Assembly (NCBI GenBank): GCA_030625965.1
Contig: DAOUPV010000016.1
Coordinates: forward strand, 1-37,100
DNA from: Clostridia bacterium
GTDB taxonomy: Bacteria; Bacillota; TC1; UBA5767
DNA: 37,100 nucleotides
Reading direction: 5' to 3'
Shown here: positions 15,023 through 36,892 of the stretch, piece by piece
How the letters are laid out: each line of letters begins with the position of its first letter
Numbering within the stretch: the stretch's first letter is position 1
The notes under the pieces: model-generated
What the model was told of the DNA's origin: nothing
The model's database searches: none
The model's input: the letters and a program-made list of their open reading frames with translations, nothing else
Program-made: the position numbers and the translations under genes

Positions 15023-15068
15023 TGTTAACCTCAAGCCATCAGGCTTTTCACAAATTTCTAACTATACA

Positions 15069-15097
15069 ATAATACTCCTAAGAATCATGTCGTGCAA
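15069..15097 (-). promoter_or_regulatory. Candidate promoter for the ecf-truA operon
   Basis: On the minus strand TTGCAC (15092-15097), a 17-bp spacer and TATTAT (15069-15074) lie about 45 bp upstream of ecfA1. The -10 matches five of six positions; the -35 is weak. A separate promoter is needed because the accessory block and its terminators lie upstream. Confidence 0.4.
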
Positions 15098-15274
15098 GAA
15101 ATAACGGGATTGTACCCCTACTATGTAACATCAACCATAATTGTACCCCTACAATCTGAAACGTGCTATCTCAAAGGATAGCACTTGCTATACAATTACT
15201 ACAGACCAGGCCCTAACGCCGGTCCTGGCAGAGCCCTTGCCGATTGTACCGCTACACTTATCGAGGTGTACTAC
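15098..15274. repeat. Spacer with repeated 13-bp motif (ATTGTACCCCTAC family)
   Basis: No gene is seen in this stretch. ATTGTACCCCTAC occurs at 15109-15121 and 15140-15152; the second copy extends to a perfect inverted repeat, ATTGTA-CCCC-TACAAT (15140-15155). A variant, ATTGTACCGCTAC, is at 15243-15255. Related 13-mers lie just after the 3' end of the lipoprotein gene at 19500 (19470-19482 and, across the stop codon, 19491-19503). A separate hairpin, GTGCTATC-N6-GATAGCAC, is at about 15163-15184. Confidence 0.55.
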
Positions 15275-15484
15275 TCACTGTACGAGACCCAATCCGTTCT
15301 CCACCGTATTGCGATAATAGCTGAACAGAATCCGTCCATCCTCCAAAACACCCAGGATACAGACATTGGCCCCTTCCACGTTCACAATGTCCTCCTCAAG
15401 CTTCCAGGTGTCCAGGTTCTGCCTGTTTATATGGATCACCTTCATGTTATCCGTAAATGTCAGGAAGGCCACCTGGTTATTGTC
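15275..15484 (-). pseudogene. 3' relic of a third lipoprotein paralogue
   Basis: About 70 codons are homologous to the last part of the two complete lipoproteins in this block, from VAFLTFTDNMKVIHIN to the ending SYYRNTVENGLGLVQ, with a normal stop codon. It is closest to the gene at 17510-19216 in this region. There is no start codon, signal peptide or N-terminal domain: homology stops abruptly at about 15484, where the sequence changes to a copy of the rpsM 5' end. The 3' flank resembles that of the lipoprotein at 19500. This is a truncated, non-functional copy. Confidence 0.88.
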
Positions 15485-15620
15485 TTTTCTCTATGTAAGT
15501 CAACTCTAGAAATACGAGCCATTTAGCTATGCCTCCATAATTTCATTTAAATCTATGATTCCAACGCAACTAGGCCCCATAGGGCCATGAGCAGCAATCT
15601 TCTTCAGTCGGGAATTCAAA
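15485..15620 (-). pseudogene. Relic copy of the rpsM 5' end and leader
   Basis: This segment aligns with 24123-24257: the first 13 codons of rpsM, its ribosome binding site and the rpmJ-rpsM spacer. The codons read MARISRVDLHREK against [13 protein letters not shown] in the intact gene, then run out of frame into the lipoprotein relic and stop. By eye the first 70 bp are close to 90 percent identical; similarity is patchier after that and ends near a shared GTCGGGAATTCA. It carries two missense changes and cannot make S13. Confidence 0.85.
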
Positions 15621-15652
15621 ATTTCAGCAGTAAGGGGAAGACCCTGCTCCAT
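15527..15652 (-). other. Open frame of 41 codons over the rpsM-leader relic, probably not a gene
   Basis: A minus-strand frame starts ATG at 15652 and ends TAG at 15527, just before the relic rpsM start. It encodes a peptide beginning MEQGLPLTAEIL and containing AAHGPMGPSCVGIIDL. No good ribosome binding site precedes it, and the matching frame in the true rpsM leader is interrupted by a stop, so the reading frame is not conserved between the two copies. It is recorded because its residue composition is not obviously random. Confidence 0.2.
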
Positions 15653-15699
15653 GGTGCTAAACCATGATATCCATTAATCCGTCGATGTTGCTATCATGC

Positions 15700-15740
15700 A
15701 AAAAGAAAGCCACATTTCAAATCATGAAATGTGGCTTTCT
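15700..15740 (-). terminator. Rho-independent terminator downstream of ygeW
   Basis: A perfect 15-bp stem (15705-15719 with 15725-15739) has a 5-nt loop. On the minus strand it is followed by five T residues. It lies about 105 bp after the ygeW stop codon. Another perfect hairpin, GTACCCTTG-ATCA-CAAGGGTAC (15750-15771), sits between the two and has no adjacent T-tract on the minus strand. Confidence 0.88.
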
Positions 15741-15843
15741 CGATACTACGTACCCTTGATCACAAGGGTACCTGTTCAACTTCAATTTTTTTCGGCTAAG
15801 GTTCCGGATTTCCTCCTTCACCATCGCTCGATCTTATAGTATC

Positions 15844-17037
15844 CTATCCCTGAAATCTTTCAGTGCCTTTGGCCATCAGTTTTTCAATCATGGCAACAGG
15901 ATCTTTCGTTTTAGAGAGAAACATCATAGCTGCTATGATATATGGTTTGTAACTGGCTTCTTTATACAGTGGTACTCTGTAACGGTCAAAGACTGAAGCT
16001 TCAACTTCACCCTCTTCACAGCTTACACCTGTAATGTCAGCTGGTAGACAGTGCATATACAAGGCTTTACCGTCTTTCGTGCTGGCCATAAGTTCTTCAG
16101 TGCACTCCCAATCCTTATGGTTAGCATTTTGTGCAAGCAATTCTTGTTCCAATGCCTTGATACCGTCAAAATCGCCATTGCCATATAATTCAGTACGTTC
16201 TTCCATTGCTTTGAATGGCGCCCAGCTCTTTGGATAAACAATGTCTGCATCCTTGAAGGCTTCAGCCATGGAATTTGTCTTTACAAAACTGCCGCCAGTT
16301 GAAGCTGCATTTTTCTCTGCCACATCTTCTACATCTGACATGATTTCATAACCTTCTGGATGAGCCAGAACTACATCCATACCAAAGCGGGTCATCAGGC
16401 CAACGATACCTTGTGGTACTGAAAGAGGCTTACCATAGCTTGGAGAATATGCCCAAGTCATAGCGATTTTTTTGCCCTTCAGGTTTTCTACTCCGCCAAA
16501 TTCATTAATGATATGCAACATATCAGACATGGATTGAGTGGGGTGATCGATATCGCATTGGAGGTTGACCAAGGTAGGTCTTTGTTCCAGAACACCATCT
16601 TTGTGGCCTTCTACGACCGACTTGGATACTTCTTTCATATAGGTGTTGCCTTTGCCGATGTACATATCGTCACGGATACCAATGACATCTGCCATAAACG
16701 AAATCATGTTGGCAGTTTCTCTGACTGTTTCACCATGGGCAATCTGAGATTTTCCTTCATCTAAGTCCTGTACTTCCAGTCCTAGCAGATTACAAGCACT
16801 TGCAAAGGAAAAACGTGTTCTAGTTGACTGGTCACGGAATAATGAGATAGCCAGGCCACTGTCGAATAATTTTGTAGAAACATTGTTTTCTCTTAAGTCT
16901 CTTAAAATGTCTGCAACCTTGTGCACTGCAGAGATCTCATCATCTGTTTTTTCCCATGTCAATAAGAAATCATCATTGTACATGTTCTTGAAGTCTAAAC
17001 CTTTCAGTTCGCTGAGCAATTTTTTACTTTTTTCCAT
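15844..17037 (-). CDS. ygeW: Knotted carbamoyltransferase, YgeW family
   Basis: A cytoplasmic carbamoyltransferase of the aspartate/ornithine superfamily, 397 residues, matching the YgeW subgroup in length. It has the carbamoyl-phosphate-binding STRTR (71-75), HPTQ (165-168) and HCLP in MHCLPADITG near 328. The second substrate is unknown for the family; YgeW is usually encoded with purine-degradation and carbamate kinase genes. Here it stands alone between lipoproteins and the ecf operon. The ATG has GAGGGGG seven bases upstream, with TATAAT about 55 bp upstream. Its codon choice and its very AT-rich upstream region look unlike the neighbours, consistent with separate acquisition. Confidence 0.92.
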   Translation of the reverse strand: MEKSKKLLSELKGLDFKNMYNDDFLLTWEKTDDEISAVHKVADILRDLRENNVSTKLFDSGLAISLFRDQSTRTRFSFASACNLLGLEVQDLDEGKSQIAHGETVRETANMISFMADVIGIRDDMYIGKGNTYMKEVSKSVVEGHKDGVLEQRPTLVNLQCDIDHPTQSMSDMLHIINEFGGVENLKGKKIAMTWAYSPSYGKPLSVPQGIVGLMTRFGMDVVLAHPEGYEIMSDVEDVAEKNAASTGGSFVKTNSMAEAFKDADIVYPKSWAPFKAMEERTELYGNGDFDGIKALEQELLAQNANHKDWECTEELMASTKDGKALYMHCLPADITGVSCEEGEVEASVFDRYRVPLYKEASYKPYIIAAMMFLSKTKDPVAMIEKLMAKGTERFQG

Positions 17038-17509
17038 AGTGGTGCCCCCTCATTCTTTTTTTGGTCATGCTTTTATATTTTATTATACTTTTCAAATCAT
17101 AATTAGATTGAGTCGCATGCTGCTCCTGCTACTAATTAACATTTGGAAAGCATAACTTATATACCGACTCGTTAAATATCTATATGTCTAACATCTATAA
17201 AAATAATATCAATATTTTAACGAAATGTCTATTTCTCTTTGAAAGTTTTTAAGATGAATACCTCTGAGTAGTTCCCTTTGGAGTGTAAATCCGCCATTTG
17301 CGTTAATTAAGAGTGGTTACAGGGGTGTATAATCAGACACAGAAGAAAATGATATCCTTCTAGGTTTGTCAAGAAAGAGGTTATCAGCCTAATTTACTAA
17401 ATTAGAGCTAATTCCTAATACATTCTTATTATACACCCAACGTGGTTTGCATGCAGAACTATCCAACCATGATTTAATCTCGTGCTCATTAGGTGCACCA
17501 ATTTTAATA
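17038..17509. other. AT-rich spacer upstream of ygeW
   Basis: About 470 bp without a convincing gene. It holds the presumed ygeW promoter (TATAAT on the minus strand near 17086-17091, no clear -35). A 43-codon minus-strand open stretch without a start, ending at 17389, abuts the lipoprotein stop codon and contains KSWLDSSACKPRWVYNKN; it may be the tail of a lost gene or chance. CTAATTT-N3-AAATTAG is a small inverted repeat at about 17389-17405. From 17040 to 17440 the composition is clearly richer in A and T than the genes around it. Confidence 0.4.
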
Positions 17510-19216
17510 TCACCTAATCAGACACAATCCATTCTCCGCAGAATTACGGTAATAGCTGAAGAGAATGCTTCCATCTTCCAGAACACCCAAGATATAGACA
17601 TTGGCCCCTTCTACATTCACAATGTCCTCTTCAAGCTTCCAGGTGTCCAGGTTCAGTCTGTTTATATGAATCACCTTCATGTTGTCCGTGAAGGTCAGGA
17701 AGGCCACTTGGTTCTTGCCGTTGTAGACACTGTCCGGCCACCGGATATAGTCGACAGAAGTTTCAGCCAATTCCGCCTCTATTATATTGGTCTGACCGCT
17801 GGCGAAATCGTAGTAATACACATCAAAAAGACCATAGTCAGTAGGTATTTCCGCCTCGCCGGCTTCTCCCTCTCTATGTGCCTCAATCCAGGCCAGCATA
17901 CCGCTATCATAAAACTGGTTTTTGGTTGAGATACCTTCAAAATACTCTTCCACAAGCTGGAAGGTACCTGTCTCCAGCTCGTAACTGATAAATCCCGTAT
18001 TATAGTCATAACCAGCCAGCGTGGCGACTACCTTGTATCCTCCCGCCACGAAGCGCGGATGGTAGAAATAACGGTTTCTGATACCATCCGGTGGTTGACC
18101 CCTTCCCGGCAGCGTTCCCATCAGCAGCGACGAACTTCCACTTTCCAGATTATAGAGCTTCAAACCCTCCTTGTCAGAGTAGATGACGTTCTTTCGATCC
18201 GGTGACAGGTCTCGGCCAAAGACCTCATCCTCCCCCTCTGTTCTAAGTAGCGATGAAGGCAGTCCGATTTCCTCTTCAAATCGCAGTTCACTGTTATATA
18301 TTTCAATGCGTCCTTCCAGGTATAGGATGATATCCTCATCCTTAACCGTTCCAGGTCTTGTGTATTCAGCACCATCAGCTGAAAGCGCCCTTACCACTTC
18401 CAGAGTACCCTTGTCCAAAGCTAGAAGAGGCCTCTCTTCATCGTTCGTACTCATGATGACCCAGTCTGCCGTTTCCCCTATTATCCGCTTATATCCCGTC
18501 TCAAGAGGTCCCAGGTCAAGGTGATCACCTTGTATGGCAACTGTATCAATGTCCAGATACTGCCAGGTACCTCTACTGATGTAGTAGCTTCCGTCATCAC
18601 GGGGAATCAGGGTGCAAATGAATTCACGTTCCACCAGCTCATTACGTCCGTTGGCATTCTGCGCCAGGGTGGCGGTTATACTCCCATCCGTATGGCGAAT
18701 AGCCTGCTCCAGTTCTATACCCCATGCGTTCTCATCCCGGTAGGACAGGATTCTCCTCCCGTAGGCCGGGAAGGTGAATGCCCCTTTATTCACATCGTAA
18801 TATTCCTCTTGCATCAGCGAGAGGTCCAGTTCCCTAGTATTGAAATATTTCTCTACATAGTCCATGGCCGTTTCCATAGGGAAATACAAAGAGTTGCTTT
18901 CCTCGCTAACAGGCTCCAGAGTGGCTATCAGAGCCTCCTTGCCATTATCCGCCAGGTACTGGTCCCAGCAGTACTGGATAATATCGTTGGGATCGATATC
19001 CGCCGGAGAATTGTAGGTCTCGGTGTTCATAATTGTGGTGATGGCGAAATAAAGATATCCATCCCAGATTTCCGCCAGCTCAATGGGATCTGTTATTTCC
19101 ATATCTGTCAAAGGCTTTGGTTCTTCTTGTATGATTACTTCAGCTTCTTTACCGCAGCCGCTAATAAGGATTACCAGCAACGCCAGCATCATAGCCAGTA
19201 GCTTTCTGGTTTTCAT
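17510..19216 (-). CDS. Uncharacterised lipoprotein, paralogue A (probable beta-propeller C-terminal half)
   Basis: A 568-residue predicted lipoprotein: signal MKTRKLLAMMLALLVILISGC with the lipidated Cys at 21, then an acidic linker. Residues about 50-240 form an N-terminal domain with DGYLYFAITTIMNTETYNS, YCWDQYL and SYRDENAWG. From about 250 onward there are repeated beta-rich units (for example SPDRKNVIYSDKEGLKLYNL, ATLAGYDYNTGFISYELETG and FLTFTDNMKVIHINRLNLD) that suggest a TolB- or WD-like propeller. Strongly conserved with its paralogue are GRGQPPDG, HPRFV and ILGVLEDGSILFSYYRN. The ATG at 19216 has GGGAGG five bases upstream; a further-upstream start is spurious. The family is not recognised. 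It is likely anchored outside the cell membrane. Confidence 0.85.
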   Translation of the reverse strand: MKTRKLLAMMLALLVILISGCGKEAEVIIQEEPKPLTDMEITDPIELAEIWDGYLYFAITTIMNTETYNSPADIDPNDIIQYCWDQYLADNGKEALIATLEPVSEESNSLYFPMETAMDYVEKYFNTRELDLSLMQEEYYDVNKGAFTFPAYGRRILSYRDENAWGIELEQAIRHTDGSITATLAQNANGRNELVEREFICTLIPRDDGSYYISRGTWQYLDIDTVAIQGDHLDLGPLETGYKRIIGETADWVIMSTNDEERPLLALDKGTLEVVRALSADGAEYTRPGTVKDEDIILYLEGRIEIYNSELRFEEEIGLPSSLLRTEGEDEVFGRDLSPDRKNVIYSDKEGLKLYNLESGSSSLLMGTLPGRGQPPDGIRNRYFYHPRFVAGGYKVVATLAGYDYNTGFISYELETGTFQLVEEYFEGISTKNQFYDSGMLAWIEAHREGEAGEAEIPTDYGLFDVYYYDFASGQTNIIEAELAETSVDYIRWPDSVYNGKNQVAFLTFTDNMKVIHINRLNLDTWKLEEDIVNVEGANVYILGVLEDGSILFSYYRNSAENGLCLIR

Positions 19217-19363
19217 GGAAACCTCCCCTAATTCGTCATTCTGAATAATCATGCAAATTATATACTCGTTATAGATTTAGCGTATACCCATTACGTTCCT
19301 GGGTCAATGCTATGTTGCTCTATACTGGCGAGAATCTTGTGGTTTTCCAATCCCTGCAATAAC

Positions 19364-19408
19364 AAAAAGAGTGTTGTGTAACTACAGATACGTAGTAGCA
19401 CAACACTC
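19364..19408 (-). terminator. Rho-independent terminator between the two lipoprotein genes
   Basis: A long hairpin has a perfect 10-bp outer stem (19369-19378 with 19399-19408, arm GAGTGTTGTG) and an inner CTAC/GTAG pairing. On the minus strand it is followed by TTTTTG. It lies about 90 bp after the stop codon of the upstream lipoprotein, so the two paralogues are probably separate transcription units. TATAAT at about 19255 and TTGACC-N17-TACGCT nearby are weak promoter candidates for the downstream gene. Confidence 0.85.
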
Positions 19409-19499
19409 CCCCAAACCCTATCTTACTATCACCTAATCCTTATTTTGTATGACTTGTTAACTTCGGATAATTGTAACGCTACGCCTGACAACTGTTCCC

Positions 19500-21203
19500 C
19501 TACGGTATGAGGCCCAATCCATTCTCCGCTGGATTGCGATAGTAGCTGAACAGTATACTTCCATCTTCGAGCACACCTAAAATATTTAAACGGCCTCCTT
19601 GTAGTCTTAATAGGTCCAGCTCCACATCCCAAATGCTCAGATCCAACCGGTTAACATGAATGATATCTTGGTTGTCCGTGTAGGTCAAAAAGGCCACATG
19701 GTGCTTACCATTGTACAATGTAGAAGCAACTCTGACGTAATTAAGCGCCTCTTCTTTCAATGCCGTAGCAATGAGGTTGGTTTCACTACTGTAGAAATCG
19801 TAGTAGTACAATTCAAAGTACGGATTGTCCTGGACCTCTTCCTCTTCTCTTGCTAGTGACTCAATCCAGGTCAGCATTCCCGTATCCTGAAACAGATGTT
19901 CCGTAGACATCCCATCAAAGTACTCTTCAACCACCTGAGACGCTCCACTTTCCATGTCATAGCAGAAGAAGCCGGTGTTGTAGTCATAGCCAGCCAAGGT
20001 GGCAATCAGCTTGGTCCCATTACCCACGAACCTAGGATGGAAGTAATATCTGTTTTTCTTGCCATCCGGGGGCTGGCCTCTTCCTAGCATCGTGGGAGTC
20101 AGCAGGTGTTCCTGACCTTCTGTCAGATCGTAGATCTTTAGCCCTTCACGGTCAGCAAAAACCAATCGCTCGCCATCCTGCGACAGATCCAGTCCGAATA
20201 TCCTCTCCTCCTCGGTCTGGGGGATTAGACATTCCGGCAATGCTATCTTTCCCATAGGTTGCAAAAATAGGTCATATATTTCAATGCTATCCTCGAGATA
20301 GAGGGTGATTGTATCCCCATCTAGAGCAGGCAGGCGCAGGTACTCCGTTTGGGCATGGGATAACTCGTTTATCACTTCGAAGCTCTCCTTAGCCAGTACC
20401 AGAATAGGAGTCTCTGTCTCCTTGTTGCTCAGATACAGAGCAGTATCCGTCTCACCGATGACTCTTTCAAAACGCTTATCCAGGATTCCAAGTTCCCGGT
20501 ACGCCCCCTCCATAGAAATGGAATCGTTGTCCAGGAACCGCCAGCCTCCGCTCACAAAATATAAGCTGCCATCCTCCCGAGCGGCCAATTTAGCGGTAAA
20601 GACGCGCTCCACCATGTCTCTTCTGTCGGAGGCCATCTGATTTATCTCGACCTCAATACGGCCGTCCTCGTAGCGCAGCACCTTGCCCAGCTTCATACCC
20701 CAGGCATTGTCATCCCTGTATGAGGGTATCTCTCTCTCGCGTACTTTAAGGGTGAAGTATCTCCCATCCGGGTTATAGAGAGAATCACTCAGCTTGTCCA
20801 GTTCTATGTCACGGGTATCAAAATAACGCTCCACGTATTCCAATCCCGCCTCCAGTGGAAAGAGCCTTCTGGCACTGTATGGACTAGCAACTGCCAACTG
20901 CTGTTCCAGCTCCTGCGCTCCCTTCTCTTCCACGTACTGGTTCCAGCAGTATCGGATCATATATTTGGGATCTATCTCCGCCACAGAATCATACTGTTCT
21001 GTGTTCATGACGGTCGCTATTGCGAAAAAGAGGTAATCCCGCCAGAGGATCTCCAGTTCTTCCTGGTCAGTGATCTCCTCGGCCACTGAGATTACAGGTT
21101 CTTCTACATCCGCTATAGGTATTGGATTCGTGTCCTCTGACACTTCCTGGCAAGCAGCCAGGAAGAGCATCAGTACCAGTGACAGTGCAATCAAACGTTT
21201 CAA
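19500..21203 (-). CDS. Uncharacterised lipoprotein, paralogue B (probable beta-propeller C-terminal half)
   Basis: A 567-residue predicted lipoprotein, one residue shorter than paralogue A. The start is a TTG with AGGAGG seven bases upstream, giving signal MKRLIALSLVLMLFLAAC (Cys18). A frame extending 56 codons further upstream lacks a signal-like start and is rejected. The domain plan matches paralogue A: an N-terminal domain (DYLFFAIATVMNTEQYDS, YCWNQYV, SYRDDNAWG) followed by beta-rich repeats with GRGQPPDG, HPRFV, ATLAGYDYNTGFFCYDMESG and the ending ILGVLEDGSILFSYYRNPAENGLGLIP. Identity to A looks near half overall. The function is unknown. Confidence 0.85.
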   Translation of the reverse strand: MKRLIALSLVLMLFLAACQEVSEDTNPIPIADVEEPVISVAEEITDQEELEILWRDYLFFAIATVMNTEQYDSVAEIDPKYMIRYCWNQYVEEKGAQELEQQLAVASPYSARRLFPLEAGLEYVERYFDTRDIELDKLSDSLYNPDGRYFTLKVREREIPSYRDDNAWGMKLGKVLRYEDGRIEVEINQMASDRRDMVERVFTAKLAAREDGSLYFVSGGWRFLDNDSISMEGAYRELGILDKRFERVIGETDTALYLSNKETETPILVLAKESFEVINELSHAQTEYLRLPALDGDTITLYLEDSIEIYDLFLQPMGKIALPECLIPQTEEERIFGLDLSQDGERLVFADREGLKIYDLTEGQEHLLTPTMLGRGQPPDGKKNRYYFHPRFVGNGTKLIATLAGYDYNTGFFCYDMESGASQVVEEYFDGMSTEHLFQDTGMLTWIESLAREEEEVQDNPYFELYYYDFYSSETNLIATALKEEALNYVRVASTLYNGKHHVAFLTYTDNQDIIHVNRLDLSIWDVELDLLRLQGGRLNILGVLEDGSILFSYYRNPAENGLGLIP

Positions 21204-21341
21204 AACTTGCCTCCTCGCATGACCTACATCGCATATGCAATATATATTCTTTCTAAGTTCAGAATATACCCGGACAATGCCAAAGCCAACTAACTGCCCG
21301 TTTTTATTTGCATTCCCGGTCTCCTCCTGTGTGATATGCGC

Positions 21342-21368
21342 AAAAAAAGACTCCCTTTCGGGAGTCTT
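21342..21368 (-). terminator. Rho-independent terminator after rplQ
   Basis: A 9-bp stem (21347-21355 with 21360-21368) has a GAAA tetraloop on the minus strand and is followed by a run of T (plus-strand A-tract 21342-21348). It lies 5 bp after the rplQ stop codon and closes the ribosomal supercluster. Confidence 0.95.
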
Positions 21369-23791: not shown

Positions 23792-24160
23792 TTACTTCTT
23801 TCTCGCAACAGCGCCACGCTTCGGACCTTTTCTAGTCCTGGCGTTGTTCTTGGTATTCTGTCCGCGTACTGGCAACCCTCTTCTGTGGCGCATTCCCCGG
23901 TAGGATCCAATCTCAATTAAGCGTTTGATGTTCAGTTGAACTTCTCTTCTCAGATCTCCTTCAACTGTAAAGTTCTTTGAAATACTTTCTCTCAGTTTAC
24001 TGACTTCATCTTCGGTCAGTTCTTTGACTCTGGTATCCGGATTGATGCCGGTTTCTGCCAGAATCTTCTGAGCTGTAGTTCTACCAATACCATAGATATA
24101 GGTGAGTCCAATTTCAACTCTTTTTTCTCTTGGTAAGTCAACTCCAGAAATTCGAGCCAT
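23792..24160 (-). CDS. rpsM: 30S ribosomal protein S13
   Basis: S13 forms small-subunit head bridges to the large subunit. The 122-residue sequence starts [26 protein letters not shown] and ends with the basic tail [16 protein letters not shown] frame extends 16 codons upstream, but GGAGG lies nine bases before the ATG at 24160, which matches the family start. The first 13 codons and upstream leader are duplicated as a relic at 15485-15620. Confidence 0.98.
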
Positions 24161-24284
24161 TAAGCTATACCTCCAATAATTTCTATTAAATCTATGATTC
24201 CAACGCAAGTAAGCCCCATCGGGCCCTTTATGGAATCGTGAACAGTCGGGAATTCACTTGCGTGATAGCCGCTCCCGGGTCTGA

Positions 24285-36716: not shown

Positions 36717-36892
36717 ATTACTTCCTCCTTCGCCCGTATTTCATGCGGACATACTCAGTGGAAAAACCTAGATTCCTTTAGGAAAAGGGCTAGCAACCTC
36801 CCACATCATCGCATATCAAAACGTAGTTCTAAAACGTGGCAAGAGTCAGGGGCGCTTGGCCCCTGACTTTTTGCCGCAACATTGCTATTATA
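36717..36892 (-). promoter_or_regulatory. Structured tuf-rpsJ spacer, probable S10-operon leader
   Basis: A long hairpin spans 36838-36875: a 10-bp inner stem (AGTCAGGGGC at 36844-36853 with GCCCCTGACT at 36859-36868), extended by GGCAA/TTGCC across a small bulge. On the minus strand no T-tract follows, so it is not a canonical terminator for tuf; the T-run is on the plus-strand side. Nearer rpsJ is a small TTCC-TAAA-GGAA hairpin flanked by CTAG repeats. No strong promoter was found. It may be a leader or processing structure between tuf and the S10 operon. Confidence 0.5.

Follow-up and report, generated by a model that had tools for sequence, protein, structure and literature searches.

A decayed rpsM 5′ end fused to a lipoprotein gene remnant between the alpha and ecf operons of a Clostridia bacterium, a possible footprint of gene entry into a stable cluster

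The alpha-ecf neighbourhood is among the most stable gene orders in Firmicutes, and how new genes enter this cluster without breaking its expression is debated. According to a reconstruction in Gammaproteobacteria and Bacilli, the ancestor of Bacilli had its alpha and ecf operons in concatenation, most alterations of the cluster start when genes are inserted between operons, and the proposed likely route for such insertions is segmental duplication followed by asymmetric gene loss (PMC8046335). This route is one proposal, and its traces are rare by its authors' account. In the genome of a Clostridia bacterium, a chimeric scar of about 340 bases was found between these two core operons, in which an rpsM 5′ end abuts the 3′ end of a lipoprotein gene on the minus strand. 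The locus raises the question of what this scar is, how it was formed, and whether it records the entry of new genes into the cluster. Positions given below are those of the window, the whole stretch of 37,100 nucleotides that was analysed, unless a contig is named.

The scar is located in a block of DNA that extends from the rplQ terminator to the region upstream of ecfA1 (15155 to 21342, as defined by the end points of homology to G002). Three relatives were compared, including two of the same genus and one of the same family (G001, G002, and G003), with G002 the closest. DNA homology to G002 was found to stop at 21342, just past the rplQ terminator, and to resume at about 15155 to 15107 upstream of ecfA1; in all three relatives ecfA1 comes directly after rplQ, about 160 to 255 bases away. 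Because the homology to G002 breaks off and the relatives have rplQ adjacent to ecfA1, the block is regarded as an insertion specific to this lineage among the genomes compared, and the alpha-ecf adjacency is broken in this genome only of the four. Neither the scar nor an intact duplication, for which an earlier note on this DNA had proposed a search of sister genomes, was detected in any of the three relatives.

Apart from the scar, the block includes two lipoprotein genes and ygeW, all on the minus strand: (i) lipoprotein gene A (19500 to 21212), which directly follows the rplQ terminator and has a likely TTG start after an AGGAGG near 21212 and the lipobox LAAC; (ii) lipoprotein gene B (17510 to 19252), an open reading frame with the lipobox LISGC that is the closest paralog of the lipoprotein half of the scar; and (iii) ygeW (15844 to 17037), which encodes a knotted carbamoyltransferase (TIGR03316, E-value 3e-236) and is positioned between gene B and the scar. 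The products of genes A and B (17510 to 21212) are about 570 to 580 residues in length and 47% identical to each other. They had no sequence match in Pfam, NCBIfam or the PDB, and a profile of the lipoproteins had no match among solved structures. A more distant homolog (34%) was detected by protein search on another contig of the genome, and distant homologs were found in a few other Firmicutes genomes; no relative of lipoprotein B was found in a search of named genomes, where a search with rpoA recovered more distant Firmicutes only. The ygeW gene usually sits elsewhere in genomes, and here it was observed between the alpha and ecf operons.

The structure of the scar was determined by BLASTN of positions 15040 to 15840 against the window. 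The rpsM half (15485 to 15618, minus strand) matched 24123 to 24256 at 83% identity over 135 columns with two gap positions (E-value 3e-33), and consists of a decayed rpsM leader, the ribosome binding site and the first 13 codons; its template is the corresponding leader portion and 13 codons of the intact rpsM gene (23795 to 24163, minus strand), an open reading frame encoding the S13 protein, which is 98% identical in the closest relative. The lipoprotein half (15285 to 15482) matched 17520 to 17717 without gaps at 87% identity (E-value 6e-67), a match that extends to 15285 to 15487 (against 17520 to 17722) under milder scoring and represents a C-terminal remnant of about 67 codons on the minus strand. 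In addition, 76 bases of the scar (15277 to 15352) matched the other lipoprotein gene at 19502 to 19577 (80%, E-value 3e-14). The stop codon of the lipoprotein half is at 15275 to 15277, and similarity to the 17510 gene reaches as far as 15285. The two homologies meet at 15485 to 15487 with an overlap of at most three bases, and at this joint the rpsM frame is out of the lipoprotein frame and, as read from the sequence, terminates after 20 codons. All matches of the scar within the window are on the same strand, and no further copies of the chimera or of its rpsM half were detected genome-wide (2.57 Mb, 148 contigs). These alignments bear out the earlier note in its description of the locus as a chimeric relic, namely a switch at about 15484/15485 from a lipoprotein 3′ end to copied rpsM sequence (leader, ribosome binding site and 13 codons), with rpsM upstream and the lipoprotein downstream in the minus-strand order of the chromosome. 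Both halves are decayed, and the scar is a double pseudogene fragment without supported function.

The rpsM half was compared with its active copy in the same genome and with the relatives. Its first 13 codons read MARISRVDLHREK, with two replacements relative to the intact gene, at a Gly and a Pro that are constant in G001, G002, and G003. When the relic, the resident rpsM and G002 were aligned, 17 changes were found only in the relic and one only in the resident gene, while five states were common to relic and resident versus G002; at four of these five G001 agreed with G002. Thus, resident and relic share four states that are absent from G001 and G002, versus one shared in the opposite way, though these sites are few. 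Based on the shared states and the 17 versus 1 changes, we conclude that the rpsM half was copied from the rpsM of this lineage after the split from G002 and then drifted freely. From the sequence comparison, such drift is what would be expected of a spare copy. The loss of constraint was also apparent in the predicted fold: the intact leader forms a 5′ hairpin and a second, compound hairpin, and of the base pairs in this resident fold, 21 of 21 were kept in G002 and 15 of 21 in the relic, with the 5′ hairpin of the relic broken.

These comparisons bear on two further explanations. An artefact of assembly might be considered since the genome is a draft of 148 contigs; however, the rpsM and lipoprotein halves differ by 17% and 13%, respectively, from every other copy in the genome, and the replacements at two conserved S13 residues indicate that the stub did not come from a functional gene that was joined wrongly, leaving this explanation highly improbable. 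The stub could instead have arrived by foreign recombination, in DNA from a related species, and not from the resident rpsM. This possibility would be in keeping with the presence in the insertion of ygeW, which is without a close match in the two genus relatives and is 85% identical in another genus of the family, yet the four positions that resident and relic share against G001 and G002 place the stub closest to the resident gene, and we regard a foreign origin as very unlikely.

The lipoprotein half displayed a different history. Compared with lipoprotein B, it has about 20.5 synonymous differences in 43.7 sites (dS 0.74) but 8.5 nonsynonymous differences in 157.3 sites (dN 0.056), and no stop or frameshift was present in this codon comparison. 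If the half were a spare copy that had been neutral since duplication, about two thirds of the 29 differences would be expected to be nonsynonymous, whereas about nine or fewer were seen; the probability of this outcome for a copy neutral from birth lies between 2e-5 and 3e-4, according to how strongly gene B is assumed to be constrained. Similarly, a half that matched the rpsM stub in age and freedom to change would be expected to show about 20 nonsynonymous differences versus the 8.5 observed (P = 0.002), and fewer synonymous changes than were seen (P = 0.01). Because dS is high but dN is low, the lipoprotein half is concluded to be the remnant of an older third paralog (gene C) that was functional or under selection for most of its history. 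The earlier note had proposed that the scar was formed by one tandem duplication, running from the rpsM leader through rpsK-rpsD-rpoA-rplQ to a lipoprotein gene, and one internal deletion; the lipoprotein half would then be a spare copy of the 17510 gene. The order and orientation of the two halves agree with that scenario, as does the closest similarity of the lipoprotein half to the 17510 gene; however, the half is both over-diverged at synonymous sites and over-conserved at nonsynonymous sites, so the claim that it arose in the same duplication is not supported and the scenario as a whole is considered improbable. On the relic branch, 17 changes in 134 sites were counted for the rpsM half versus at most seven in 157 nonsynonymous sites for the lipoprotein half (Fisher P = 0.017; few sites), which weakly suggests that drift of the rpsM copy may have been under way before the lipoprotein half was truncated.

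How the two halves were joined can be narrowed by the geometry of the joint. With rpsM upstream and the lipoprotein downstream on the same strand, this is a deletion-type joint. The rpsM 5′ end must have been present twice, because a deletion between sole copies would have removed the essential rpsM, rpsK, rpsD, rpoA, and rplQ genes. On balance we favour an account in which a segment was copied from the rpsM leader onward, followed by a deletion from rpsM codon 13 into lipoprotein gene C. The proposed steps are as follows: (i) the lineage-specific block, with lipoprotein genes A and B, the third paralog C and ygeW, would have arrived between the alpha and ecf operons; (ii) a direct-orientation copy of a segment beginning in the rpsM leader would have been placed immediately downstream of ygeW, before gene C; and (iii) a deletion from rpsM codon 13 into the last 67 or so codons of gene C would have joined the rpsM stub to the lipoprotein tail. 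That the copy was a segmental tandem duplication (e.g., one of about 8.6 kb with the rpsM leader and ygeW at its ends), and that the events took place in this order, we infer. The earlier proposal of a tandem duplication followed by deletion is retained in part, as the deletion-type joint and the need for a second rpsM 5′ end agree with it; the part in which the lipoprotein half stems from that duplication is not supported.

The extent of the duplication, including the span across rpsK-rpsD-rpoA-rplQ proposed in the earlier note, is not visible in the genome, since no second-copy fragment of rpsK, rpsD, rpoA or rplQ was found to survive in a whole-genome search. A 41-base match to the rplQ end and terminator was observed on another contig (G000:C40:108725-108768, L125; 82%, E-value 0.001) and is possibly merely a similar terminator. 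The survival of only 134 rpsM bases, and of no other alpha-operon fragment, would be accounted for by a single event if the scar were instead a one-step complex deletion with templated filler. Here, repair of a break downstream of ygeW would have removed most of gene C, with about 134 bases of the rpsM leader copied in by template switching and no larger duplication at any time. The resulting sequence would be almost identical to that left by a duplication and deletion. Under such an event, however, both halves would have become neutral simultaneously, which is at odds with the unequal counts of relic-branch changes given above; moreover, a source in the same operon cluster and a direct orientation of the copy are expected of a duplication but not required by filler. 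We judge the templated filler unlikely. Returning to the favoured account of a copied segment and later deletion, a further step would be to view the rpsM stub as a rare surviving trace of a core alpha operon duplication through which new genes came to be inserted between this operon and the ecf operon; this reading is put forward tentatively, as less probable than not.

Duplication with asymmetric loss would be expected to leave traces such as a decayed rpsM stub next to an insertion. If the stub were indeed the footprint of an alpha operon duplication, it would provide sequence-level evidence that this process breaks an ancient cluster; a single case from one draft genome is no proof of that route. 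In Psychromonas ingrahamii, a second alpha operon has been described that is complete (rpmJ2-rpsM2-rpsK2-rpsD2-rpoA2-rplQ2; PMC8046335), which is likewise a within-chromosome copy of the alpha operon, whereas here only a stub is present. In the SNAP paper, pseudogenes with matching active copies were named as possible remains of old duplications (PMC7055797). The scar resembles such a remnant in that a partial spare copy of the alpha operon, reduced to a pseudogene fragment, lies beside an insertion that breaks the alpha-ecf concatenation; it differs in that only 134 bases of the copy are left, in one genome. Overall, the scar agrees with the model in the literature, in which segmental duplication is followed by asymmetric loss, and is a small example of an already known kind. 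As a genomic fossil it is genuine but ordinary, and its modest interest lies in the possibility that it marks gene entry into a stable cluster.

Several roles for the scar and its surroundings were considered and rejected. The intact rpsM leader is at the same place as Alpha_RBS (Rfam RF00140), the S4-binding leader of the alpha operon, and matched it weakly over its full length (18.8 bits, with 21 to 22 bits in two relatives); however, the gathering score of 38 is far higher, most of the match comes from the region of the start codon, and the relic had no match to RF00140. For Clostridia, a different S4 leader motif is reported upstream of rpsM (PMC7247131), and no Rfam family for it matched here. 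A regulatory role of the relic is unsupported because it matches no Alpha_RBS or S4 leader family, and its function as a regulatory RNA or decoy was dismissed based on the broken fold, with 15 of 21 pairs left and the 5′ hairpin lost. The stub was also rejected as a promoter or start of the ecf operon, as the stretch conserved in G002 is nearer to ecfA1, at about 15050 to 15107, and outside the scar. An open frame of 41 codons across the stub (15652 to 15530, minus strand) matched nothing in Pfam, and none of 60 relatives had a homolog; it was discarded as a small gene and is probably due to chance. Finally, replacement of the alpha operon by foreign DNA was set aside: divergence at four-fold sites relative to G002 was 0.15 to 0.3 for the ribosomal protein genes versus about 0.57 for secY and map of the same cluster, as high as in the ecf genes, and the low divergence of the ribosomal protein genes is explained by codon bias.

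Other elements were noted in the window. The leader between rpmJ and rpsM (24168 to 24260) was found to be conserved across the genus and in part of the family, with a 5′ hairpin bearing the loop CCGACTG and a compound hairpin in which both strands of base pairs have changed; it is a candidate ribosomal-protein leader with only weak resemblance to Alpha_RBS. Upstream of ecfA1, three near-palindromes of the form TTGTAnnnnTACAA were detected at 15110, 15141, and 15244 (region 15110 to 15257), and a similar near-palindrome was present upstream of ecfA1 in G002. Palindromes of the TTGTAnnnnTACAA type with at most two mismatches had 28 matches in the whole window versus 14 expected. The elements upstream of ecfA1 may possibly serve as an operator of the ecf operon. 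An S10-Clostridia ribosomal protein leader (RF03136) was identified above its gathering score at 36730 to 36818 on the minus strand.
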